Shown one piece after another: positions 3,428-14,323 of a stretch of DNA of 16,789 nt. Source of the DNA: Pseudonocardiaceae bacterium (GTDB taxonomy: Bacteria; Actinomycetota; Actinomycetes; Mycobacteriales; Pseudonocardiaceae); contig JAICSB010000025.1 of the NCBI GenBank assembly GCA_025937115.1, forward strand, positions 1 through 16,789, given 5' to 3'. The stretch's first letter is position 1; every line of letters starts with the position of its first letter. Made by a program: the position numbers and the translations under genes. The notes beneath the pieces were generated by a model, which saw nothing but the letters and a program-made list of their open reading frames with translations, was not told the DNA's origin and did not search any database.

Positions 3428-4696
3428 TCAGGTGACGAGGACGGCGCGGAAGTCGTTGACGTTGGTCAGGGTGGGACCGGTTACCACCTGATCACCCAGC
3501 GTGGCGAAGAAACTGTGCCCGTCGTTGTCGGCCAGCGCCGCTGCGGCGTCCACCCCAAGCTGCGTGCCGCGGCGCAGGGTGTCAGGTCCGATCAGGGCTC
3601 CGGCCACCTCTTCCGTCCCGTCCACGCCGTCGGTGTCGCAGGCGATGGCGTAGACGTGCTCGGCCCCGCGCAGGGCCAGTGCCAGAGACAGCAGCAGTTC
3701 GACATTGCGGCCGCCGCGGCCGGTGCCGCGCACGGTCACGGTGGTCTCGCCGCCGGAGAGCAGCACGCACGGCGGCGGCGCCGGCTGGCCATGGCGGCGC
3801 ACCTGGCGGGCGATGCCGGCCAGCACGATCCCGACCTCCCGAGACTCGCCCTCCAGCGAGTCACTCAGGATCACCGGTGAGACTCCGGCCTGGCGGGCCA
3901 CCGCCGCGGCGGCTTCCAGCGACTGCTGCGGGGTGGCGATCACGTGATTGGTCACCCGGGCCAGCCGCAGGTCGTCGGGTCCAGGGCACCCTGGCGACGT
4001 CGCCAAGTGCTCCCGGACTACCGGCGGCACCGGGACGTTGCAGGCCGCCAGCACCGCCAGTGCCTGCGCCGGAGCGGACGGCTCTGCCACGGTGGGCCCG
4101 GAGGCGATCACGGCGGGGTCGTCGCCAGGCACGTCGGAGATCAACAATCCCACGGTCGCAGCCGGGAACGCCGCCGCCGCCAGCCGGCCGCCTTTGATCG
4201 CGGACAGGTGCTTGCGCACCAGGTTCATCGCTGCGATCGACGCCCCGGAGCGCAGCAGTGCGGTGTTGATCGCTTGCTTGTCGGCCAGAGTGATGCCCGG
4301 CGCGGGCAACGTCAGCAGAGCCGAGCCGCCGCCGGAGATCAGCGCCAGCACCAGGTCGTCCGCACCGAGGTCGGACACCAGCTCTAGGATCCGGCGGGCG
4401 GCCCACTCACCGGCGGCGTCGGGCACCGGATGCGCCGCCTGCACGATCTCCACGCGCACGCACGGCACCGCGTGGCCGTAACGGGTCACCACGAGTCCGC
4501 TCAGCGGACCGTCCCAGGCCTGCTCGACCGCCTGCGCCATCCGCGCCGAGGCCTTCCCGGCCCCGACCACAACCACCCGCCCGGGCGGCCGCGCCGGCAG
4601 GAATCCCGCGACTCGCTGCAGCGGGTCCGCGGCCGCCACCGCCGCATCGAACATCGCCCGCAACAGCCCTGCCGGATCACCCACTTGCGCACTCAC
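3428..4696 (-). CDS. gckA: Glycerate 2-kinase, MOFRL family
   Basis: ATP-dependent cytosolic kinase converting D-glycerate to 2-phosphoglycerate, the step that returns serine-cycle carbon to central metabolism. It is 422 residues, normal for the type-2 (GckA/TtuD) family. The N-terminal domain shows VVVVGAGKAS (residues 41-50, with the catalytic Lys of this family), QAAHPVPD (86-93), SGGGSALLTLP (121-131) and LLISDVPGDDPAVIASGPT (184-202). The C-terminal MOFRL domain follows from about residue 300, with LLSGGETTVTVRGTGRGGRN. The start is GTG 4696 with only a weak purine-rich site upstream. Seven residues into the protein another GTG occurs, so the exact start is uncertain. It is the last gene of the cluster, separated from the upstream reductase gene by 110 bases containing a long hairpin. 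The context makes glycerate, rather than a tartrate-pathway intermediate, the likely substrate source. Confidence 0.9.
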   Translation of the reverse strand: MSAQVGDPAGLLRAMFDAAVAAADPLQRVAGFLPARPPGRVVVVGAGKASARMAQAVEQAWDGPLSGLVVTRYGHAVPCVRVEIVQAAHPVPDAAGEWAARRILELVSDLGADDLVLALISGGGSALLTLPAPGITLADKQAINTALLRSGASIAAMNLVRKHLSAIKGGRLAAAAFPAATVGLLISDVPGDDPAVIASGPTVAEPSAPAQALAVLAACNVPVPPVVREHLATSPGCPGPDDLRLARVTNHVIATPQQSLEAAAAVARQAGVSPVILSDSLEGESREVGIVLAGIARQVRRHGQPAPPPCVLLSGGETTVTVRGTGRGGRNVELLLSLALALRGAEHVYAIACDTDGVDGTEEVAGALIGPDTLRRGTQLGVDAAAALADNDGHSFFATLGDQVVTGPTLTNVNDFRAVLVT

Positions 4697-4725
4697 GCCA
4701 CGCCCACCGCAACGACGCGGAATGT

Positions 4726-4786
4726 CGTGAACTCAACGAGACCGACATCGGAGAGGGCTGCGGACGTCGGTCCCGTCGAGTTCACG
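4726..4786 (-). repeat. Long imperfect inverted repeat between the reductase and glycerate kinase genes
   Basis: Arms of 21 bases (4726-4746 and 4766-4786) match at 19 positions. On the minus-strand transcript, which is the sense strand of the operon, both mismatches become G-U pairs. The stem also extends inwards by G-U, U-A and C-G to 24 pairs around a 13-base loop. On the plus strand the same two positions would be A-C mismatches. No U-tract follows. It could be a terminator or attenuator that lowers glycerate kinase expression, an mRNA-stabilising stem, or a dispersed palindromic element. Confidence 0.75.
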
Positions 4787-4806
4787 GACAGTGGCGCGCG
4801 GCAGGC

Positions 4807-5775
4807 TCACGCCACCCGGCAGGATGGCTCGCGGCCCGCTAGGAAATCCTGCAGGTTGTCCAGGACAAGCATGCCCATGGCGGTGCGGGTTTCCAGAGTC
4901 GCGCTGCCCAGATGGGGCAGCAGCACGGCGTTGTCCAGCTTGAGTAAATCCTGCGGGATCTCGGGTTCGCCCTCGTAGACGTCGAGTCCGGCGCCGGCGA
5001 TCGTCCCGGATCGCAGCGCCTCGATCAGCGCGCTCTGGTCGATGACGTCGCCGCGGGCGCTGTTGACCAGGAATGCGGTGGGTTTCATCCTGGCCAGCGC
5101 CGCGGCGTCGATGAGGTGGGTGTTCTCGGCGCCGCCGGGCATGTGCAGTGAGACGAAGTCGGCGACGGCCAGTACTTCGTCGAGGGTGCCGACGCGGCGG
5201 GCGCCGGGGATCCCGTGGTCGGGCTCGAAGTCGGCCGGGTCGTAGAAGACCACCGGCATGCCGAAGCCGAAGTGCCCGCGGCGGGCCAGCGCCACTCCGA
5301 TCCGGCCCATGCCCACGACGCCCAGCGTCTTGCCGGTGACGTCGGCACCCATCATGTGGGTTGGCCGCCACCCGGTCCAGCGCCCGGCGCGGACCTCGCG
5401 TTCCCCCTCGCTGGCCCGGCGCGCGGCCATCAGTAGCAGGGTCATCGCGGTGTCCGCAGTGGTGTCGGTGAGCACTCGCGGGGTGTTGGTGACGACGATC
5501 CCCACCTTGGCCGCGGCGGCGGTGTCGATGTGGTTGTAGCCGACGCCGAAGTTGCCGAGGAACTTCGTCCGCAGTTCCCCCTCGAACAGCTCAGCGGGCA
5601 GCCGGTCGGAGACGGTGGGCAGCACGACGTCGGCGTGCTCCAGCGCGGCGCGTAACCCGTGGGCCCCGAGCGGGACGTCGTCAGCGTTGAGCCGCACGTC
5701 ACTGAAACGCCGCGTCAGCTCGTCCTCGACCGGGGCCGGCCAGCGTCGGGTGACAACGATGACGGGCTCATCCAC
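4807..5775 (-). CDS. hprA: D-2-hydroxyacid dehydrogenase, probable hydroxypyruvate/glyoxylate reductase
   Basis: NAD(P)H-dependent cytosolic reductase, most likely reducing hydroxypyruvate (made by SgaA) to D-glycerate for the adjacent kinase. At 322 residues it fits the family. The substrate domain has GNFGVGYNHID (residues 74-84). The nucleotide domain has the Rossmann motif VGMGRIG (154-160) and YDP about 18 residues later (178-180), where an acidic residue usually favours NADH. The catalytic triad is visible as Arg in NSARGDVID (R241), Glu in DVYEGEPEIP (E270) and His in LLPHLGSAT (H288). The start is GTG 5775 with Shine-Dalgarno GGAGGA five bases upstream; an ATG at 5771 is out of frame. 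It follows mtkB by 21 bases and is probably co-transcribed with it. From sequence alone, glyoxylate or another 2-keto acid could also be a substrate; the pathway context decides for hydroxypyruvate. Confidence 0.88.
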   Translation of the reverse strand: MDEPVIVVTRRWPAPVEDELTRRFSDVRLNADDVPLGAHGLRAALEHADVVLPTVSDRLPAELFEGELRTKFLGNFGVGYNHIDTAAAAKVGIVVTNTPRVLTDTTADTAMTLLLMAARRASEGEREVRAGRWTGWRPTHMMGADVTGKTLGVVGMGRIGVALARRGHFGFGMPVVFYDPADFEPDHGIPGARRVGTLDEVLAVADFVSLHMPGGAENTHLIDAAALARMKPTAFLVNSARGDVIDQSALIEALRSGTIAGAGLDVYEGEPEIPQDLLKLDNAVLLPHLGSATLETRTAMGMLVLDNLQDFLAGREPSCRVA

Positions 5776-5796
5776 GGCGATCCTCCAGCAGGTTGG

Positions 5797-6693
5797 TCAC
5801 GAGCGCGCGTGCTCGGAGAGCACGCGCGCCACAGTCTCCCCGATGCACGACGGATCAGCCGCCACCGTAATACCGGCCGCCGCCAAAATCTTCGTCTTCT
5901 CCTGGGCGGATTCCCCGATGGAAGACACGATCGCACCAGCGTGCCCCATCTTGCGGCCCTTGGGGGCCGACAGCCCGGCGATGTAGGCGATCACCGGTTT
6001 GGTCATGTGATCGCGGACGTAGTCCGCACCCTCGGCTTCCTGCGGGCCACCGATCTCGCCCACCATGACCACCGCGTCGGTGTCCGGGTCGGTTTCGAAC
6101 AGTTCCAGATGATCGCGGAAGGAGGACCCGTTCACCGGGTCACCGCCGATCCCGACCGAGGTGGACACGCCGATGCCCAGCGCCTTCATCTGCGACGCGG
6201 CCTCGTAGCCCAGGGTGCCCGAGCGCCCGATCACTCCGACCCGTCCGGGGAGGTAGATATGGCCGGGCATGATGCCCAGCAGGGATTTTCCGGGTGAGAT
6301 GGTGCCTGCGCAGTTAGGCCCGGTGAGCCTCATTTTTTGCTGGACGCGGTAACGGCGCATGTAGCGCTTGACCCGCATCATGTCCTGCATAGGGATGCCA
6401 TCGGTGATGCAGACGCAGAACCGGATCCCCGCGTCGGCTGCCTCCATGAGGGAGTCAGCGGCGAATGGTGGCGGCACGAACACGATCGACGCGCTCGCCC
6501 CGGTCTCGGCCACGGCGTCCTTCATCGTGTTGAACACTGGGCGGTCCAGCACGCGGTCGCCACCCTTGCCTGGAGTAACACCGGCGACGACGTTGGTGCC
6601 GTAGTCGATCATCTCCTCGGTGTGGAAGCGCCCGATGCGGCCGGTGATGCCCTGCACCACCACGCGGGTGTGCTCATCGATCAGGATAGCCAT
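5797..6693 (-). CDS. mtkB: Malate-CoA ligase (malate thiokinase) alpha subunit
   Basis: Alpha subunit of the enzyme that makes (S)-malyl-CoA from malate, CoA and ATP, the activation step of the serine cycle. It carries the CoA-binding Rossmann half QGITGRIG (residues 14-21), PGKGG (41-45), GPNCAGTISPGKSLLGIMPG (125-144) and the phosphohistidine site GRKMGHAGAI with His251. The length (298) and segments such as CITDGIPMQDMMRVKRYMRR and IGEIGGPQEAE-type sequence match my recollection of Methylobacterium MtkB better than SucD. SucD is the main alternative, but the neighbours mcl, sgaA and mtkA favour MtkB. The start is ATG 6693 with GGAGAAGG just upstream. Unusually, it is not adjacent to mtkA: about 2.1 kb with two ATP-grasp genes lies between them. 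The 128-base gap upstream could hold a promoter, but I do not see a clear one. Confidence 0.93.
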   Translation of the reverse strand: MAILIDEHTRVVVQGITGRIGRFHTEEMIDYGTNVVAGVTPGKGGDRVLDRPVFNTMKDAVAETGASASIVFVPPPFAADSLMEAADAGIRFCVCITDGIPMQDMMRVKRYMRRYRVQQKMRLTGPNCAGTISPGKSLLGIMPGHIYLPGRVGVIGRSGTLGYEAASQMKALGIGVSTSVGIGGDPVNGSSFRDHLELFETDPDTDAVVMVGEIGGPQEAEGADYVRDHMTKPVIAYIAGLSAPKGRKMGHAGAIVSSIGESAQEKTKILAAAGITVAADPSCIGETVARVLSEHARS

Positions 6694-6821
6694 ACCTTCT
6701 CCGGACCCCCAACAGACATGAAATGCCAGCGCAAACGGTACTACGTCGGCGACTGCCGCTGCGCCACGTCGGCCAGATTCGTAGGGCCTGGCGCCGCAGC
6801 CGCACCCATGGCCGTGACAAG

Positions 6822-7697
6822 TTATTCAACTGACGATGGTAGACATGCCAACAGTACCGCCCGAGTAAGATCATCGTCGAAGTAGGGGAGCATACTAGTA
6901 AAATCGGGACAAGAGTTCACCTCAAGTACGAGTGGGCCACGCGCCGTTCGTAAAAGGTCGACTCCGGCATGGCCGAGCCCGAGGGCGCGGGCCGCATCTT
7001 CGGCCAACTTGTTCTCGCTCGGTGTCAGGTTGACAGGACACTGTGTTGCTCCGCCCGCAATGTTGCTTCGCCACTCGTTCCCGGCAGCTGTCCTTAGAGT
7101 CGCTGCCAGTAGACGCCTGCCGGTTATTACAGCCCTGATGCTGCGACCATAGAATTCTGCAACTTCTGGTTGTAAGATCAGGGCTCCAGGTCCCTCAGAT
7201 TCCAGTTCATGAAAGGCCTGTGTCAGCATGGCCGCATTTTCAGCGCGACGAACCCATCGACCTTGCGCACCGTGCGTGCGCTTTATAATCACCGGATATT
7301 GAATCTCTCTTGCGACCGAGAGGGCGCGTTCTAGGTCAAGCGAACAGATAGTGCTCGGTACCTGCGCAAGTGCGGTATGCGACAGCTGTACCGCGGTCGC
7401 CGCCTTATCGTCCACTGTCAGCACGCTATCTACGGGGTTTTGCATGTACGTTCGCCGCGCAAATATGCGGAAGGCATGTACTGCTGTCGGGAATCCAAAG
7501 AGAAGATAAGGAGCCATGCTGGTAATCTCAATAGTCCCCGCAGCGTCGCGGACCGCCGCTTCGCCATTGAAGTTGATGGCGAGGGTAAGCGTCGGAAGAT
7601 CGATGACTCGGATCGGAACCTTAAGTTCATCGGCTGCTTCGGCAAGCCGATCAGACACGTTCGGAGCATACGGGTTGCGGGCGATGCCGAGCGTCAT
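6822..7697 (-). CDS. RimK-like ATP-grasp ligase, first of the pair by position (downstream gene)
   Basis: Predicted cytosolic ATP-grasp amide or ester ligase of the RimK/LysX/CofF/MptN type, which add amino acids, often glutamate, to a cofactor or peptide. The acceptor is unknown. It is 291 residues. An N-terminal pre-ATP-grasp domain (1-90) is followed by VDDKAA (95-100), nucleotide-lid Lys in VIIKRTHGAQGRWV (136-149), the RimK-like GRSIRAVITGRRLLAATLR (184-202), EWRSNIAGGA (208-217) and the metal-binding LEVNS with Glu259 and Asn261. All key ATP-grasp positions look intact. The start is ATG 7697, which overlaps the stop of the preceding ligase gene as ATGA, so the two are translationally coupled. 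The frame also runs upstream to 7796, but that part lies inside the neighbour. G+C is low (30 of 60 at 7141-7200, 32 of 60 at 7441-7500), unlike the flanking mtk genes. I cannot assign a substrate. Confidence 0.85.
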   Translation of the reverse strand: MTLGIARNPYAPNVSDRLAEAADELKVPIRVIDLPTLTLAINFNGEAAVRDAAGTIEITSMAPYLLFGFPTAVHAFRIFARRTYMQNPVDSVLTVDDKAATAVQLSHTALAQVPSTICSLDLERALSVAREIQYPVIIKRTHGAQGRWVRRAENAAMLTQAFHELESEGPGALILQPEVAEFYGRSIRAVITGRRLLAATLRTAAGNEWRSNIAGGATQCPVNLTPSENKLAEDAARALGLGHAGVDLLRTARGPLVLEVNSCPDFTSMLPYFDDDLTRAVLLACLPSSVE

Positions 7698-8608
7698 GTG
7701 GCAGTGCCTCCCGGCCGGCGCACCATGGCGAGTCGAAGTATAGCGCCAGCGACGTCGGCGCCTGTCACCGCAGAGATACCAGCGAAGCCAGCCCACGCGT
7801 CAACCTCTAGGACCCGAATGGTTCCATCGTGGTCCTCAATTAGGTCGACGCCGCCGTAATCGAGTCTGCAGGCCTCCAATGCTTTCACCGCAGTGGATGC
7901 GGCTGGGTGATCTAGCGGGAGCCGGGTAGCGGTTGCGCCAAGAGTGAGGTTAGCTCTCACCTCACCGGGAGCCGCTTGGCGCTGCATTAATGCCACACAA
8001 GCACCGTTTACGACAAAAGCGCGCAGGTCGCGACCGCCCCCATTAACTAAAGGCTGGACGAGGTAGTGCTCCCTCGCGAGCTGCAGCGGAGACTGTTGTC
8101 TGAGATCGTCGTCCGCCCAGGCAGTCAAGAGCTCACCTGTCGAGCCGAAAGCTCGGATTCCTTCGCCCCGAACACCGTGAGCCGGCTTCACAATTAAGCC
8201 ACGCTGGTCTTTGAACGACTCTAGGGCGTCTTCGCTTGGCTCCACCATGGCAATCGTGCGAACGATTGGTACCTGACAACGGTGCAACGCAAGGTATGTC
8301 GATAACTTGTCTCTTGAACAGTATGCGGCTTCTGGCTCGTTGAGGACGATGGCTTTTTCGAAGGCCCACAACTTTAATGCAGGAACCACTATCCCTTGGA
8401 ACGCTGCGACCGTGCGATGCATGACGACTTTCGGCTGGACCGGCTTGCCATCATAACACGCAGAGATTCCCCCATTCGTGCAGCGAATCTGAAGCCGATG
8501 AGGCTCCCAAGTTGTGAGGCGAATGCTGCAACTCCGCGCAGCTTCACAGAGAAGTTCCCAGTTGGCAAGCTGCACATCGGGATAATGCAGCACCACAAAG
8601 TCCTCCAT
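7694..8608 (-). CDS. RimK/MptN-like ATP-grasp ligase, second of the pair (upstream gene)
   Basis: Predicted ATP-grasp ligase of 304 residues, distantly similar to its partner. Motifs: CSRDKLSTYLAL (97-108), nucleotide-binding KPAHGVRGEGI (141-151), NGGGRDLRAFVV (189-200), EVRANLTLGA (216-225), YGGVDLIE (251-258) and LEVDAWAGFAGISAVTG (267-283). The last segment resembles the EVN-x-x-PGW-x-GL-x-x-VTG pattern I recall from tetrahydromethanopterin or F420 glutamate ligases, except that the usual metal-binding Asn is Asp270. The start is ATG 8608; the longer frame to 8779 has a low-complexity Arg/Ser-rich N-terminus and overlaps mtkA. No Shine-Dalgarno precedes ATG 8608, but a TACCAT box sits 7 bases upstream, as expected for a leaderless transcript. 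It overlaps the downstream ligase by ATGA. G+C is low (30 of 60 at 8281-8340). Possible acceptors include a folate- or furan-type C1 carrier, coenzyme F420 or a peptide; none is proven. Confidence 0.85.
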   Translation of the reverse strand: MEDFVVLHYPDVQLANWELLCEAARSCSIRLTTWEPHRLQIRCTNGGISACYDGKPVQPKVVMHRTVAAFQGIVVPALKLWAFEKAIVLNEPEAAYCSRDKLSTYLALHRCQVPIVRTIAMVEPSEDALESFKDQRGLIVKPAHGVRGEGIRAFGSTGELLTAWADDDLRQQSPLQLAREHYLVQPLVNGGGRDLRAFVVNGACVALMQRQAAPGEVRANLTLGATATRLPLDHPAASTAVKALEACRLDYGGVDLIEDHDGTIRVLEVDAWAGFAGISAVTGADVAGAILRLAMVRRPGGTAT

Positions 8609-8615
8609 CGAAAAG

Positions 8616-8621
8616 ATGGTA
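8616..8621 (-). promoter_or_regulatory. Candidate leaderless -10 box of the ATP-grasp genes
   Basis: TACCAT on the minus strand fits TANNNT and lies 7 bases before ATG 8608, so transcription could begin at the A of the start codon. The absence of a Shine-Dalgarno there fits. No clear -35 is seen. Confidence 0.5.
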
Positions 8622-8629
8622 CACGCCCC

Positions 8630-8660
8630 GAGTGGCCGGTACGGGGGAGACGAGCCACTC
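8630..8660. promoter_or_regulatory. Inverted repeat around the -35 region of the ATP-grasp promoter
   Basis: Perfect 7-base arms GAGTGGC (8630-8636) and GCCACTC (8654-8660) with a 17-base spacer flank the expected -35 position of the promoter at 8616-8621. It could be an operator, or the remains of a terminator for the mtkA transcript ending 129 bases upstream; there is no T-tract. Confidence 0.35.
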
Positions 8661-8788
8661 TTTCCGCGACACGAGTCAGCACAGCTGCGCGATGAAACCG
8701 AGAGATCGCCGCACAGGGCCGCGTTAGCGCGTGCTGCTGGTGGGCGTGTCCGTCGTCGGGATGGCGATGTCCTTGCCAACCGACCCTT

Positions 8789-9961
8789 TTAGAAACCGAC
8801 GGTGCCCACGACGGCGACGGCCTTGTGGGCCGCCTCAGCCAGGCTGTCCGCGGTGATGATGGGCAGTCCGGAGTCTCGCAAGATCTGATGGCCGAGATCG
8901 ACGTGCGTGCCGGCCAGCCGCACCACCACTGGGATCTTGACGTCGAGCTCTTTGAACGCGGCCACAATGCCCTGGGCTACCCAGTCGCAGCGGTTGATGC
9001 CGGCGAAGATGTTGATCAGCATCGTCTTGACCTTGGTATCGTGCAGCACCGCGCGAAACGCCTTGAGAACCCGCTCTGGTGACGCGCCGCCACCGATGTC
9101 CAGGAAGTTCGCCGGCTCACCACCCGCTACTTTGATCATATCCATGGTCGCCATGGCCAGGCCCGCACCGTTGATCATGCAGCCGATGTCGCCGTCGAGG
9201 CCGACGTAGGCCAGCCCGCGGTCGGCGGCGTGGCTTTCCCGGGCGTCTTCCTGGCTACGGTCCCGCAGCTCGGAGATGTCGAGGTGGCGAAATAGTGCGT
9301 TGTCGTCAAAGGACATTTTGGCGTCGAGCGCGACCATGCTGCCCTTGGTCGTCACGGCCAGTGGGTTGATCTCCAGCATGGTGGCGTCGAGGTCCCGGAA
9401 GGCCCGGTAGGCGCGGCGGAATATCCGGCTGGCCTCGGCGAGCAGCGCCGGTTCCAGGCCGAGCGCGAAAGCGATCTCCCGCGCCTGGAACTCGAGAAAT
9501 CCGGCCGCGGGCTCGATGGTCGTGCGCACCAACGTTTCGGGCTTGGTGGCCGCCAGCTCCTCGATGTCCATGCCACCCTCGGCGGAGGTGATGATGCACA
9601 CCCGCTCGATGCGGCGGTCCAGCATGATGCAGAAGTACAACTCGCGGGCGATGTCGGTGGCCTCCTCAACGTACACCCGGTAGATCAGCTTGCCGCGCGG
9701 CCCGGTCTGCTTGGTGACCAATCGCCGGCCGAACATGTCGTTCGCGACGTCTTGGACGTCACGGTCGGAACGGCACACCTTCACTCCGCCGGCTGCACCG
9801 CGGCCGCCGGCGTGGATCTGGGCCTTGACCACCCAGGCGGACCCGCCGATCTCGGTGCACCGGTAGGACGCCTGCTCGGGGTTGTAGGCCAGGCCGCCAA
9901 CGGGAGTCGGTACGCCGAAGCGGGCCAGGATCTCCTTGGCCTGATATTCGTGAATGTCCAC
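8789..9961 (-). CDS. mtkA: Malate-CoA ligase (malate thiokinase) beta subunit
   Basis: ATP-grasp beta subunit of malate thiokinase, which with MtkB forms (S)-malyl-CoA for cleavage by Mcl. From GTG 9961 it has 390 residues beginning [12 protein letters not shown], the same length and start as the Methylobacterium MtkA I recall. Visible motifs are the ATP-binding [16 protein letters not shown] (46-61), [10 protein letters not shown], the metal-binding [20 protein letters not shown], and the CoA-ligase half with [28 protein letters not shown] and [15 protein letters not shown] sequence. A TTG at 9967 is in frame, but the purine-rich GAGAGGG lies 6 bases before GTG 9961 and adjoins the TTG, so GTG is preferred. 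The gene begins 11 bases after mcl and is probably the last gene of the glyA-sgaA-mcl-mtkA unit. SucC is the alternative; the neighbourhood favours MtkA. Confidence 0.94.
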
Positions 9962-9972
9962 GCCCAACCCTC

Positions 9973-10926
9973 TCAGGCCCGGCTCGCGGCGGCGGTCCGG
10001 ATCGCCTCGTCCATCGCGATCACGGTCTGGGCCATCCGCTCAGAGGCGGCGTCGATCATCTTGCCGTCCACCGCCGCGGCACCCTTACCCTGCGCCTCGG
10101 CTTGGCGTAGCGCTTCGATGATCCGCTGCGCTCGGTCGACTTCGGCTGCCGGTGGGCTGAACACCTCATTGGCCAGCGCGACCTGGCTGGGATGGATCGC
10201 CCACTTACCCTCAGCGCCCAACGCTGCGGCCCGCCGTGCAGCAGCGCGGAAGCCGTCGGGATCGGAGAAGTCGCCGAACGGGCCGTCGATCGGGCGTAAC
10301 CCATAAGCCCGGCAGGCCACGATCATCCGGGACAGCGCGAAATGCCACTGATCACCGGGATAGTCCGGATTCAGACCACCAATGCTCACCGTGCGGGCGC
10401 GGTTGCTCGCGGCGTAGTCGGCCACCCCGAAATGCAGCGCCTCCAACCGGCCAGGACTGCTCGCGATGGCTTCGACGTTGGCCATTCCCAGCGCGGTCTC
10501 GATCAGCGCTTCGATGCCGACCTTGTTCGGGTAGCCCTTGGCCTGCTCGATCTGGTTGACGAGTGCTTCCACGCAGTACAGATCCGCCGGCACCCCGACC
10601 TTGGGCACCAGGATGGTGTGCACCCGGTCGCCGGCCTGCTCCATCACGTCGATGACGTCGCGGTACATGTAGTGGGTGTCCAGGCCATTGATCCGCACCG
10701 ACACCGTCTTGCCTTTGGCAGCCCAATCGATGTCGCGCAGCGCCTCGACGACATTGCGGCGGGCCTGCTCCTTGTCGCCGGGGGCGACCGCATCCTCCAG
10801 ATCGAGGAAGACGAAGTCGGCGGCGCTGTCCGCCGCTTTGTCGATGAAGCTGGTGTTCGATCCCGGCACCGCCAGCTCACTGCGTTGCAACCGGGGCTGA
10901 CGCATCGGGTGCAGGGTGTGGCTCAT
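9973..10926 (-). CDS. mcl: L-malyl-CoA lyase (beta-methylmalyl-CoA lyase type)
   Basis: Cleaves (S)-malyl-CoA to glyoxylate and acetyl-CoA in the cytosol. Glyoxylate then accepts the amino group from serine, and acetyl-CoA is the assimilated product. It is 317 residues, of the CitE/HpcH TIM-barrel family. Features: [12 protein letters not shown] (13-24), [13 protein letters not shown] (40-52), substrate-binding [14 protein letters not shown] with Arg78, metal ligands Glu143 in [14 protein letters not shown] and Asp170 in [24 protein letters not shown] (212-225) and KWAIHPSQV (241-249). These blocks match the Methylobacterium MclA I recall, but a loop near residues 186-194 is shorter by roughly 15 residues. 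The start is ATG 10926, which overlaps the sgaA stop as ATGA. The same frame is open far upstream, but that part is a shadow of sgaA. A CitE-like citramalyl-CoA lyase is a less likely alternative given mtkA next to it. Confidence 0.93.
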
Positions 10927-12125
10927 TCGGGGCCAGCCTCGGCTTCCAGCGCCGCGGTCGCGCAGCGGTAGTAGTCCTGGGCCGCCGCGACGCCGGCCCC
11001 GAGCTCGATCTTGGCCCCGGCGTCGGCCAGCGACATCTCCGCGCAGGCCAGCGCGGCGAGGCAGGCCACCTCGTTGAGATGTCCGAGGTGGCCGATCCGG
11101 AACACCTTGCCCGCCACCTTGGACAGACCGCCCCCGAACGACGTTCGGTACCGGTGGTACCCGATCCGGCAGACCTCCGCGGAGTCGACGCCCTCCGGGG
11201 TGCGGATCGCCGAGACGGTGTCGGAGTACCACTTCGGGTCCAGCGCACAGAGCGACAAGCCCAGCGCGTCGACCCCGCGACGAATCCCTTCGGCGAGCCT
11301 GTGGTGCCGCGCGAACACCTGCGGCAGGCCTTCGTCGAACAGCAGGTCCAGCGCGGCCCGCAGCCCATGCAGCATCGGCGTGGACGGGGTGTAGGGGAAG
11401 TAGCCCAGATCGTTGCTGGCGAGCATGTCCTCGAAGCTGAAGTAGCAGCGCGGCATCGTCGAGGACTTGTGCGCCTCCAGCGCCTTGGCGCTGACCCCGA
11501 GCAGGGCCATCCCGGCCGGCATCATCAAGCCTTTCTGCGAGCCGCTCACCGCTAGGTCGACGCCCCAGGCCTCCTGCTCGAACGGGATAGACGCCAGCGA
11601 CGACACCGCATCGACGTACAGCAGCGCGTCCGAGCCGGCCGCGTCCATCACCGCGCGAACCGCGGCGATGTCGGAGGTCACCCCGGTGGCGGTCTCGTTG
11701 TGGCACACGAAGACACCCTTGATGGTCTTGTCCTCGCCGAGGTGACGCGCGTAGTCCTCCAGCGGGACGCCCTCGCCCCATTCCCGCTCGATGCAGATGA
11801 CGTCGAGGCCCAGGCGCTTCGCCATGGTGGCCCAGAGCTGCGAGAACTGGCCGAAGCTCGACATCAGCACCCGGTCGCCCGGGTTGAGGGTGTTGGTGAT
11901 CGCCGCCTCCCACGCCCCGGTCCCGGAGGAGGGATACATGACCACCCGGCCGGTCTCGTTGGCGAAGACCGTCTTGAGATCTGCGAACAGCGGCAGGGTC
12001 AGCTCCGGGAAGTCCGGTGCCCGGTGGTCCTGCATCGGCACGTTCATCGCGCAGCGCACGGCGTCCGGCACATTGGTGGGACCAGGAATGAACAGGTGCA
12101 TGGGTCCGGCAGGCACCCGCGTCAC
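10923..12125 (-). CDS. sgaA: Serine-glyoxylate aminotransferase
   Basis: PLP-dependent class V aminotransferase that converts serine and glyoxylate into hydroxypyruvate and glycine, linking the glyA and mcl products to the reductase. It is 400 residues. Seen: [13 protein letters not shown] (11-23), [16 protein letters not shown] for PLP phosphate binding (65-80), CHNETATGV (141-149), [11 protein letters not shown] with PLP-contacting Asp172, [13 protein letters not shown] with the Schiff-base Lys198, and [19 protein letters not shown]. The start is GTG 12125, overlapping the glyA stop as GTGA, with AAGGGCG just upstream. Its stop overlaps the mcl start, so glyA, sgaA and mcl are coupled. Alanine-glyoxylate activity is also common in this family, but the serine-cycle neighbours support serine as donor. 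Confidence 0.94.
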
Positions 12126-13411
12126 CGCCCTTCAGGGTGGGGTGTGAGCTGGGGATACAGCGGGTAACGCTTGGCCAGTACCCGGGTGCGTTCGCGCAGC
12201 GACGCTCGTTTGGCCTCGTCGAGCTCCCCGGTGAGTGTTTCAGTGATGATCTTGCCGATCTCCCGGAAGTCGGTTTCCTGCAGCCCCCGAGTGGCCAGCG
12301 GGGCGGTCCCGATCCGCAGGCCGGACGCGACGGCCGGCGGTCGCGGGTCGAAGGGCACCGCGTTGCGGTTGACGGTGACCCCTATCTCGGCGAGCCGGTC
12401 CTCGGCCTGCTTGCCGTCCAGCGGAGATTCCCGCAGGTCGGCGAGCACCAGGTGGACGTCGGTGCCGCCGGTGAGGACGTTGAGCCCGCCGCCGAGCATC
12501 TCCTCGGCGAGCACTCGGGCGCCGGCGCGGGTGCGCCGTTGACGCTCCCGGAACTCCTCCGATGCGGCGATCTTCAAGGCCACCGCCTTGGCGGCGATCA
12601 CATGCATCAGCGGGCCGCCCTGCCACCCCGGGAACGTCCGAGAGTTGATCTTCTTCTTGAACTCCTCCTTGCAGAGGATCATGCCGCTGCGTGGACCGCC
12701 GAGGGTCTTGTGGATCGTCGTGCTGACGACGTCGGCGTAGGGCACCGGGCTGGGGTGTTCACCGGCGGCGACCAGCCCGGCGAAGTGCGCCATGTCGACG
12801 AACAGGTAGGCGCCCACCTCGTCGGCGATCTCCCGGAAGCGGGCGAAATCGAGCTGGCGGGGGTAAGCCGACCAGCCGGCGAGGATCATCTTCGGCCGGT
12901 GCTCCTTGGCCAGCCGGGCGAGCTCGTCCATGTCCACCCGGGAGGTCTCCCGGTCCACGCCGTAGGGCACCACGTTGTAGTTCAGCCCGGAGAAGTTGAT
13001 CCTCATGCCGTGCGTGAGGTGCCCGCCGTGGTCGAGCTTCATCCCCAGGAACGTGTCGCCGTTGTCCATCAGCGCGCTGAAGACGATCGCGTTGGCCGAC
13101 GCGCCGCTGTGCGGCTGCACGTTGGCGTGCTCGGCTCCGAACAGCTCCTTGGCCCGGTCGATGGCCAGCTGCTCAGCCACGTCGACGTGCTCGCAACCGC
13201 CGTAGTAGCGCCGGCCCGGGTAACCCTCCGCGTACTTGTTGGTGAGCACCGAGCCCTGGCAGTCCAGGACGGCTTGGGGCACGAAGTTCTCCGACGCGAT
13301 CATCTCCAGGGTGTTCTCCTGGCGGGCGAGCTCGTTGGCGAGCACCGCGGCGATCTCGGGGTCGACCTCGGAGACCGGCTTGGTGAAGAAGTCAGCGGGC
13401 AGCGCACTCAT
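12122..13411 (-). CDS. glyA: Serine hydroxymethyltransferase
   Basis: PLP enzyme making serine from glycine and 5,10-methylene-tetrahydrofolate, the entry of C1 units into the serine cycle. It is 429 residues, normal for bacterial GlyA. Landmarks: [10 protein letters not shown] (36-45), [17 protein letters not shown] (58-74), [11 protein letters not shown] (97-107), [14 protein letters not shown] with PLP-contacting Asp206 and His209, and [13 protein letters not shown] with the Schiff-base Lys235, where canonical sequences usually read THKTLRGPRGG. The start is ATG 13411 with GAGGA seven bases before it. It is the first gene of the cluster and overlaps sgaA by four bases. It may be a pathway-dedicated second copy alongside a housekeeping glyA elsewhere, which is usual in serine-cycle methylotrophs, but the window cannot show that. 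No obvious promoter was found in the 130 bases upstream; TAGGCT on the minus strand near 13480 is only a weak -10 candidate. Confidence 0.97.
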
Positions 13412-13541: not shown

Positions 13542-13922
13542 CTACCGGAGCAGCCGGACCCGGATGGGCAGGTCGAGATCGGCCCACGCGCGGTCAGCGG
13601 TCAAGACCTCAGGGGGTGTGCTGCGAACTGCTAAAGCCAGACAGCAACGATCGCCCAACGACAGCGCACGTCCACCGGCGATCGCGCGCATCGCCCCGGC
13701 GAGTTCGGCGTCCTCCTCCAGAACGGGTTCGATCGTGACGCCTGCGGCCGCGAGCAGCTGGCGAACCCGGCTGACGTCTATGTCGGCGTCCACCAGCTTC
13801 CCGATGACCTCGGCCAAGTTCGCCGCGCCGAAAGACGCGGCGTGCAGCTCATCTGCCACGAGGTCGGCGCCCGGCTCATCGTGGACCAGGGCCAAGACGG
13901 CGGACGCGTCCAGCACGATCAT
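13542..13922 (-). CDS. vapC: VapC-type PIN-domain toxin
   Basis: Predicted metal-dependent endoribonuclease toxin of a type II toxin-antitoxin pair. It has 126 residues, typical for VapC. The PIN acidic residues are present: Asp5 in [12 protein letters not shown], Glu38 in NLAEVIGKL, Asp91 in [11 protein letters not shown] and Asp110 in [11 protein letters not shown]. The site therefore looks intact and active. The start is ATG 13922, overlapping the antitoxin stop as ATGA. It lies 130 bases upstream of glyA on the same strand, so read-through into the serine-cycle genes is possible but unproven. The RNA target cannot be read from sequence. Confidence 0.92.
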
Positions 13923-14161
13923 TCGGCGGCTGCGGCAAGGCGACGTTCGGCCAGCAGTTCGTCAACGAGCGAGCGAGCTTTCGGGATGCTCGCCGCCAGG
14001 CCGCGCAACTCAGCCGCAGCGTCCTGCTGCCGCTCGAGCACGAGCCGTTGACCGGCCAGATGTAGGTGCAGGCGATCGCCGGGAGCTAGGCCAAGTGCGG
14101 CCCGGACGTCGGCCGGAATGACCAAGCGACCCTGCTGACCCAGCACCAGCGTGGCATCCAT
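13919..14161 (-). CDS. vapB: AbrB/VapB-type antitoxin
   Basis: Eighty-residue DNA-binding antitoxin expected to neutralise the adjacent VapC and repress its own promoter. The N-terminal half is a swapped-hairpin AbrB/SpoVT domain: [21 protein letters not shown], then [18 protein letters not shown]. The C-terminal half (about 50-80) is an Ala/Leu/Arg helix ([17 protein letters not shown]) of the kind that wraps the toxin. The start chosen is ATG 14161, where the AbrB domain begins; the frame continues to 14197, but those residues add nothing recognisable. The coding end overlaps vapC by four bases. Confidence 0.88.
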
Positions 14162-14323
14162 CTCTCGATAATGCCACGATACGCTCTCGGGTGCCACGAA
14201 TCGCTGACCGCGTACAGCGTCACGAATGGCATTTCCGGTCGAAGACTGACATGGTCAGTGTCCACATGCGAAGTTGATCAAAGTGGGGGACCAGGTCGGC
14301 GGCGTCGCGACGGTGCCCAGCCC

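Follow-up and report, generated by a model that had tools for sequence, protein, structure and literature searches.

A ligase gene pair between mtkA and mtkB: probable relocation of a resident module into a serine-cycle operon

The two subunits of one enzyme are normally encoded side by side. In a 16,789-nucleotide stretch of contig JAICSB010000025.1 from a soil Pseudonocardiaceae bacterium (referred to here as the window), two genes for RimK-like ATP-grasp ligases lie between mtkA and mtkB, the genes for the subunits of malate-CoA ligase. How did they come to be there, and do they serve the operon that they interrupt? A preliminary description of the locus had read them as a foreign two-gene module inserted into the operon, which may supply something that the pathway uses.

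Two ligase genes inside a serine-cycle operon

The operon begins with glyA, and ligA and ligB stand between mtkA and mtkB:

12122-13411, minus strand: glyA, serine-cycle cluster
10923-12125, minus strand: sga, serine-cycle cluster
9973-10920, minus strand: mcl, serine-cycle cluster
8789-9967, minus strand: mtkA, malate-CoA ligase subunit beta (NCBIfam NF010647, 658.7 bits, cut-off 604)
8609-8623, minus strand: putative leaderless ligA promoter, with a -10-like TACCAT 7 bases before the ATG
7694-8608, minus strand: ligA, RimK-like ATP-grasp ligase, 304 aa (PF08443, AlphaFold model)
6822-7697, minus strand: ligB, RimK-like ATP-grasp ligase, 291 aa (PF08443, predicted structure)
5797-6693, minus strand: mtkB, malate-CoA ligase subunit alpha (NF004230, succinate-CoA ligase alpha, 432 bits, cut-off 336)
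4807-5775, minus strand: hpr, serine-cycle cluster
3428-4696, minus strand: gck, serine-cycle cluster

The name mtkB was assigned from the position of the gene in the cluster. The gap at 6694-8788 measures 2,095 bp, in agreement with the roughly 2.1 kb given before for the two RimK-like ligase genes; as also described, these overlap (4 bp, ATGA, at 7697-7694) and share the minus strand with the operon. The window's sga (10923-12125) scores 551 bits against BhcA, an aspartate-glyoxylate aminotransferase, under the cut-off of 650, and its substrate assignment is uncertain.

Both ligases exceed the gathering cut-off of 21 for the RimK family PF08443, ligA with 72.9 bits and ligB, scored as a longer frame, with 80.6 bits. 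The AlphaFold model of ligA (pLDDT 91) is nearest in the PDB to RimK 7qyr (TM 0.83), and that of ligB (pLDDT 90) is nearest to RimK 5zct and 7qys, and also to ArgX/LysX. Since dN/dS is low (0.16 for ligA and 0.23 for ligB between the window and G001; 0.14 and 0.13 between the window and G002), both genes look maintained.

The G+C content is 0.581 in ligA and 0.564 in ligB (GC3, 0.60 and 0.55), and it is 0.656 in both mtkA and mtkB (GC3, 0.865 and 0.846). The lower G+C noted in the preliminary description is therefore real, but its contrast of about 50% against 70% in mtkA was exaggerated, the figures being 56-58% and 66%. In four congeners that carry ligAB its G+C is also low, 0.56-0.64. Low G+C is a property of the ligAB module in the genus, and it may date from the module's entry into the genus.

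The putative promoter has counterparts in L001, L002, L003, and L006, where TACAAT or TACTAT stands at the same distance from the ligA ATG. L005 has TATAAT 12 bases ahead of the ATG, and L004 has no evident -10-like element. A consensus promoter scan did not report the TACCAT element at 8609-8623; it found one other minus-strand promoter-like site, within ligB (7531-7503). On the minus strand of 6500-9000 there were no terminator-like sites, and mtkB is presumably transcribed by read-through from upstream or from ligA.

Gene order and ancestry in the relatives

A search for mtkA in 297 sampled genomes of the family (E ≤ 1e-150) gave 19 loci in 18 genomes, including all 11 of the genus. At each of the 19 loci mtkB directly followed mtkA in the same orientation, no more than 240 bp past its aligned end, and the spacing was about 5-90 bp in the 11 loci examined. 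The window's nearest relative, G305, whose mtkA is 98% identical, has the two genes adjacent. The presumed normal adjacency of mtkA and mtkB thus holds, and the window's order is not one that all relatives share. Among the genomes searched, ligAB between mtkA and mtkB was found in this one record, with no second genome showing it. The interrupted order is derived.

We then looked for the pair elsewhere, as the preliminary description had proposed. Genome contigs scanned with the ligB alignment yielded eight loci, L001 to L008: four in Pseudonocardiales metagenome-assembled genomes (MAGs) and one each in Blastococcus, Levyibacteriota, Actinomycetota, and Frankiales. In four congeners the pair lies upstream of glyA. 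The distance is 0.3-0.45 kb in L001, L002, and L006, where the serine-cycle genes follow with adjacent mtkA and mtkB; in L003 it is about 10 kb, with PabAB-type, aminotransferase, and other genes intervening. Beside the pair in L004, L005, L007, and L008, none of the window's serine-cycle genes was seen at ≥50% identity.

Some neighboring features deserve mention. The roughly 9 kb between ligB and glyA in L003 (10881-19790), with its PabAB-type and aminotransferase genes, is perhaps a biosynthetic cluster. The stretch from a RadA-like gene (identified by domains in L006) to glyA seems to be a variable slot. In the window, a PIN-domain gene and a MazE/AbrB-type antitoxin gene (13542-14197) stand directly upstream of glyA, at the spot where the congeners G001, G002, and G004 have ligAB; neither was found in the 16 other loci searched, including that of G305.

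The pair is patchily distributed. When all candidates were scored, ligB was present in 4 of the 11 genus genomes and undetected in the other 7, all of which have mtkA; these absences are soft, because genome completeness was not given. In even draws from larger groups, with 6 or 8 candidates scored per genome, ligB occurred in 4/297 genomes of the family, 2/298 of the order, and 1/396 of the phylum (G002 is counted in each of these samples and in the genus). It was not found in G305 or in the window's other near relatives. The representative of ligB cluster P0001 is identical to the window's ligB and lies on a separate contig of 1,059 bases (source lgn). The identical ligA cluster, P0121, is listed for two contigs, although it carries a mark assigning it to the window itself.

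Where do the ligases belong by descent? Since its nearest match, G305, is a member of the genus of G002, we infer that the window belongs to that genus too. The core alignment comprised glyA, sga, mcl, mtkA, mtkB, and hpr, with genes of <60% query coverage or <55% identity dropped; G331 is absent from the mtkB part, its gene being partial. In the core-gene tree, the window falls with G305 (0.949 nucleotide identity) in a clade with G408, G383, G430, and G331, beside G001 to G004. In a tree of seven ligAB sequences with L004 and L005 as the outgroup, the window stands outside (G002,(G001,(G003,G004))) with support of 0.91-0.98, the same branching as in the core tree. The ratio of ligAB to core distance, worked out by hand from identities, is about 1.3-1.8 whether or not the pair compared includes the window. 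The ligases and the operon genes thus branch alike, a finding that the preliminary description had listed as contrary to its proposal.

Protein trees that include metagenome relatives place the window's genes with unplaced sequences: ligA with P0122 and P0123 (support, 0.99) and ligB, with weaker support, with P0002 to P0004, in neither case with G001 to G004. Taken alone, the trees fit descent within the genus. That no ligB was found in G305 and the near relatives means either repeated loss or that the window regained ligAB from a deeper congeneric branch.

Scars, an FGase remnant, and a mosaic mtkB

The sequence around the pair carries further features:

8741-8788, minus strand: left scar, degraded mtkA-mtkB intergenic sequence together with about 30 bp from the mtkB 5′ end, by shuffle-tested alignment
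8644-8694, plus strand: remnant of an FGase gene, 51 bp, 87% identical in a 54-column alignment with L002 8814-8867, which lies within FGase
6694-6776, minus strand: right scar, decayed remnant of the mtkA 3′ end plus intergenic sequence, abutting intact mtkB, by shuffle-tested alignment
6196-6693, minus strand: divergent 5′ part of mtkB, with the switch to a G305-like allele between 6235 and 6196

The scars were tested against 10 of the 11 genus members, leaving out G003; the segments were picked after seeing BLAST extensions, and the relatives are not independent. In the anchored alignment of the left scar, the score was reached by 0 of 1,000 shuffles for 9 of the 10 relatives and by 2 of 1,000 for one. 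An unanchored local test against four relatives gave 71, 34, 3, and 5 of 1,000, which is weak for two of the four. For the right scar, the anchored figures were 0 of 1,000 for three relatives, 2, 5, and 11 for three, and 41-152 for four, and the unanchored test against four relatives gave 2, 0, 303, and 2 of 1,000. The left scar and the FGase remnant are well supported, the right scar less strongly so. The base after the FGase remnant resumes the sequence immediately ahead of ligA, so the start of FGase was deleted. For the orphan pieces between scars and genes (8741-8695 and 6821-6777), we found no convincing source. Judging from sequence, the flanking junction copies and the FGase remnant would be traces of duplication and deletion. 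In L002, a 72-bp copy (93%) of a ligA segment lies beyond the FGase gene (8263-8333), a second sign of past duplication.

By eye, the scars look more decayed than the distance between the window and G305 would give (0.87 identity at four-fold sites). Such decay is compatible with an older rearrangement that took place in a donor lineage.

The mtkB gene is a mosaic with a sharp edge. Aligned with G305, the window has 55 differences at positions 0-458, one at 497, and none at 498-811; thus, the first ~460-500 bp are 88% identical to the nearest relative and the next 314 bp are 100% identical. Fisher's test for the switch gives a P value of about 2e-13 (54/458 versus 0/313), with limits chosen after inspection. 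Over the first 450 columns, identity between the window and 8 of 10 congeners is 0.864-0.889, and with G354 and G369 it is 0.83; the same eight congeners are 0.88-0.96 identical among themselves. After position 450, G003 was omitted, its row being misaligned there (identity, 0.3-0.5). The 5′ part of mtkB thus seems, like ligAB, to derive from a deep branch within the genus. The last ~140 bp of mtkA are G305-like (0.98-0.99), so the block runs from about 8790 to 6235-6196. Probably, ligAB and half of mtkB were acquired together, as a single block, from a different lineage of the genus, or else the contig is a mosaic of strains.

We consider it likely that a resident module was relocated into the operon by duplication and deletion and then passed on by recombination together with part of mtkB. 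The pair, originally with a divergent FGase-type amidohydrolase gene, would be a resident module of a Pseudonocardiales genus, and in the sampled carriers of the genus it stands before glyA, upstream of the serine-cycle operon. In a congeneric lineage, the region would have been duplicated, in the simplest case from FGase into mtkB. Complementary deletions may then have left the module between mtkA and mtkB, flanked by a truncated mtkB start and, on the opposite side, a truncated mtkA end, with a scrap of FGase. By homologous recombination this allele, including the first ~460-500 bp of mtkB, would then have entered the window's lineage. We infer both the duplication-deletion route and recombination rather than an assembly mosaic.

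An assembly mosaic is unlikely, although it has more in its favor than the other alternatives. The contig would be a strain chimera, in which the assembler left a G305-like genome near the end of mtkA and returned to it inside mtkB, and the order would belong to the other strain only. Immediately past the switch point in mtkB, the window is indeed identical to G305 for 314 bp, and the order is known from one record. Similarity to G305 also dips in sga, parts of mtkA, and hpr, so the edge in mtkB is not the only one of its kind; these dips fit a recombining population or a strain-mixed assembly. However, a chimera requires two switches at one insert. Because the block contains the scars and the FGase remnant, some lineage with this order should still exist, and the identical ligB representative on its separate contig also speaks against it.

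A single-step horizontal insertion of a two-gene module from outside the genus, as first proposed, is improbable. It would account for the G+C and GC3 of ligAB being below those of the flanks and for the patchy distribution (4 of 297 family genomes plus a Blastococcus and a Levyibacteriota MAG), and the derived order and the separable nature of the module are parts of that proposal which stand. What lacks support is that DNA from outside the genus was inserted directly: the nearest genome relatives of ligAB are congeneric and branch as the core genes do, the congeners' copies are G+C-poor too, and such an insertion leaves the duplicated junctions and the divergent start of mtkB unexplained. 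Searches with ligB against plasmids, phages, and viral contigs gave no match, and we rejected a mobile-element origin.

A probable passenger module and what it may do

If the preferred reading, relocation of a resident module, is right, do the ligases nevertheless serve the operon? It is very improbable that they were recruited for it, for example to glutamylate a one-carbon carrier like MyfB or MptN: the pair shares the operon's strand, lies inside it, and in four congeners stands close by, and RimK-type glutamate ligases of this kind, such as MyfB and MptN, which glutamylate methylofuran and methanopterin, are known in methylotrophs (PMC8141765), but seven genus genomes have mtkA with no detected ligB, Fae was not found in the genus, the MptN model scores far below its cut-off, and in four loci none of the window's serine-cycle genes was seen beside the pair.

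The figures are as follows. Fae, a marker of the dH4MPT/methylofuran route, was found in 0 of the 11 genus genomes, with the control positive in 2 of 14 known genomes. Against the MptN equivalog model NF040720 (cut-off 350), ligA scores 114.5 bits and ligB 93.7 bits, and we regard glutamylation of methylofuran or methanopterin as unlikely. The suggestion that the pair may supply something the pathway uses is unsupported: a recurrent -10-like element of its own precedes ligA, and in other loci the pair lies upstream of glyA or elsewhere. The best reading is that the ligases are not part of the serine cycle and that the insert looks like a passenger.

The module itself recurs. A near-full-length divergent FGase accompanies ligA-ligB in four of the eight loci (L001, L002, L004, and L005); L008 begins inside ligB and cannot show it, and the window has the remnant only. 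Against PF05013 (gathering score, 28.9), the FGase scores 29.6 bits in L002 and 24.1 bits in L004. Within the genus it occurs in 2 of 11 genomes, both with ligB. In L005, a Levyibacteriota MAG, the frames of FGase, ligA, and ligB are open (4111-6587) and the ATGA overlap is kept; the module's G+C of 0.41 matches that of its contig, and uvrB adjoins. This suggests transfer between phyla. In L004 (4943-6220) and L008 (770-2047), related genes of ~425 aa (38% over 343 columns), with no Pfam match above cut-off, are convergent with ligB.

Other known systems fit less well. The LysX equivalog TIGR02144 (cut-off 275.6) gives 92.5 bits for ligA and 102.8 for ligB, and TIGR00768, the RimK family alpha-L-glutamate ligases, falls slightly short of its cut-off of 143.4 (123.9 and 130.6 bits). 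A LysW-carrier system was rejected; the FGase and ligA starts of L002 are 44 bp apart, with no space there for a carrier gene. The gene preceding FGase in L002 (7052-8248) matches TIGR04188, the model for the methyltransferase of ATP-grasp peptide maturase systems (402 bits, cut-off 380), and L003 has a 141-bp remnant of it (82%) just upstream of ligA (8781-8921). None was found in the window, in L001 (whose contig ends there), in L004 to L008, or in eight further genus loci. Graspetide maturation was therefore set aside, and the methyltransferase is kept as a lead and not counted as part of the module; moreover, ligA has 25.9 bits to the maturase model TIGR04187 (cut-off 350), with no listed match for ligB. 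The sole match of FGase to a solved structure, 20 bits to a cytochrome P450 entry, was disregarded. Among the literature matches listed for ATP-grasp and RimK, none contained N-formylglutamate amidohydrolase.

By analogy with the family, each ligase would activate a carboxylate as an acyl phosphate and form an amide. The two may act in sequence on a carboxylate, and the FGase-like hydrolase may trim or remove the product. Tentatively, FGase-ligA-ligB could be an uncharacterized amide-ligation and hydrolysis module making a new peptide-like conjugate, in the genus perhaps with a graspetide-type methyltransferase; its ATGA overlap would be kept in Actinomycetota and the Levyibacteriota MAG, and in soil Pseudonocardiales it would shift around the serine-cycle locus and could pass between strains on homologous mtk flanks.

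At close to base resolution, the locus illustrates how two genes can come to separate the subunit genes of a single enzyme with no mobile element in evidence, through decayed duplicated junctions and a recombined half gene. The enzymes are familiar; the rearrangement is the instructive part. It also warns that operon membership is not proof of shared function, and it makes FGase-ligA-ligB a target for biochemistry.

How does the locus compare with known systems? The cluster glyA-sga-mcl-mtkA-mtkB-hpr-gck has the same genes and order as in L002, and the window differs in having the ligase pair between mtkA and mtkB. With the ATP-grasp amide ligases of the RimK/MptN/LysX-ArgX type (PF08443), ligA and ligB have in common the fold and a conserved acidic site, and their best PDB matches are RimK, followed by LysX/ArgX. 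The site residues D247, E259, and N261 of ligB and D255 and E268 of ligA, which we take to bind metal, occupy invariant alignment columns; at the position of ligB N261, ligA has D270 in 27 of 27 aligned rows. Unlike those enzymes, both ligases stay under every curated cut-off of the NCBIfam models that they match, and they form an overlapping pair, adjoined by an FGase-type hydrolase in half of the loci. For gene-order change by duplication and complementary deletion, the literature matches listed were mitochondrial by title or abstract, and we cite no bacterial precedent. As in that process, the moved block here is flanked by decayed copies of the target junction; what differs is the combination with import of the rearranged allele.
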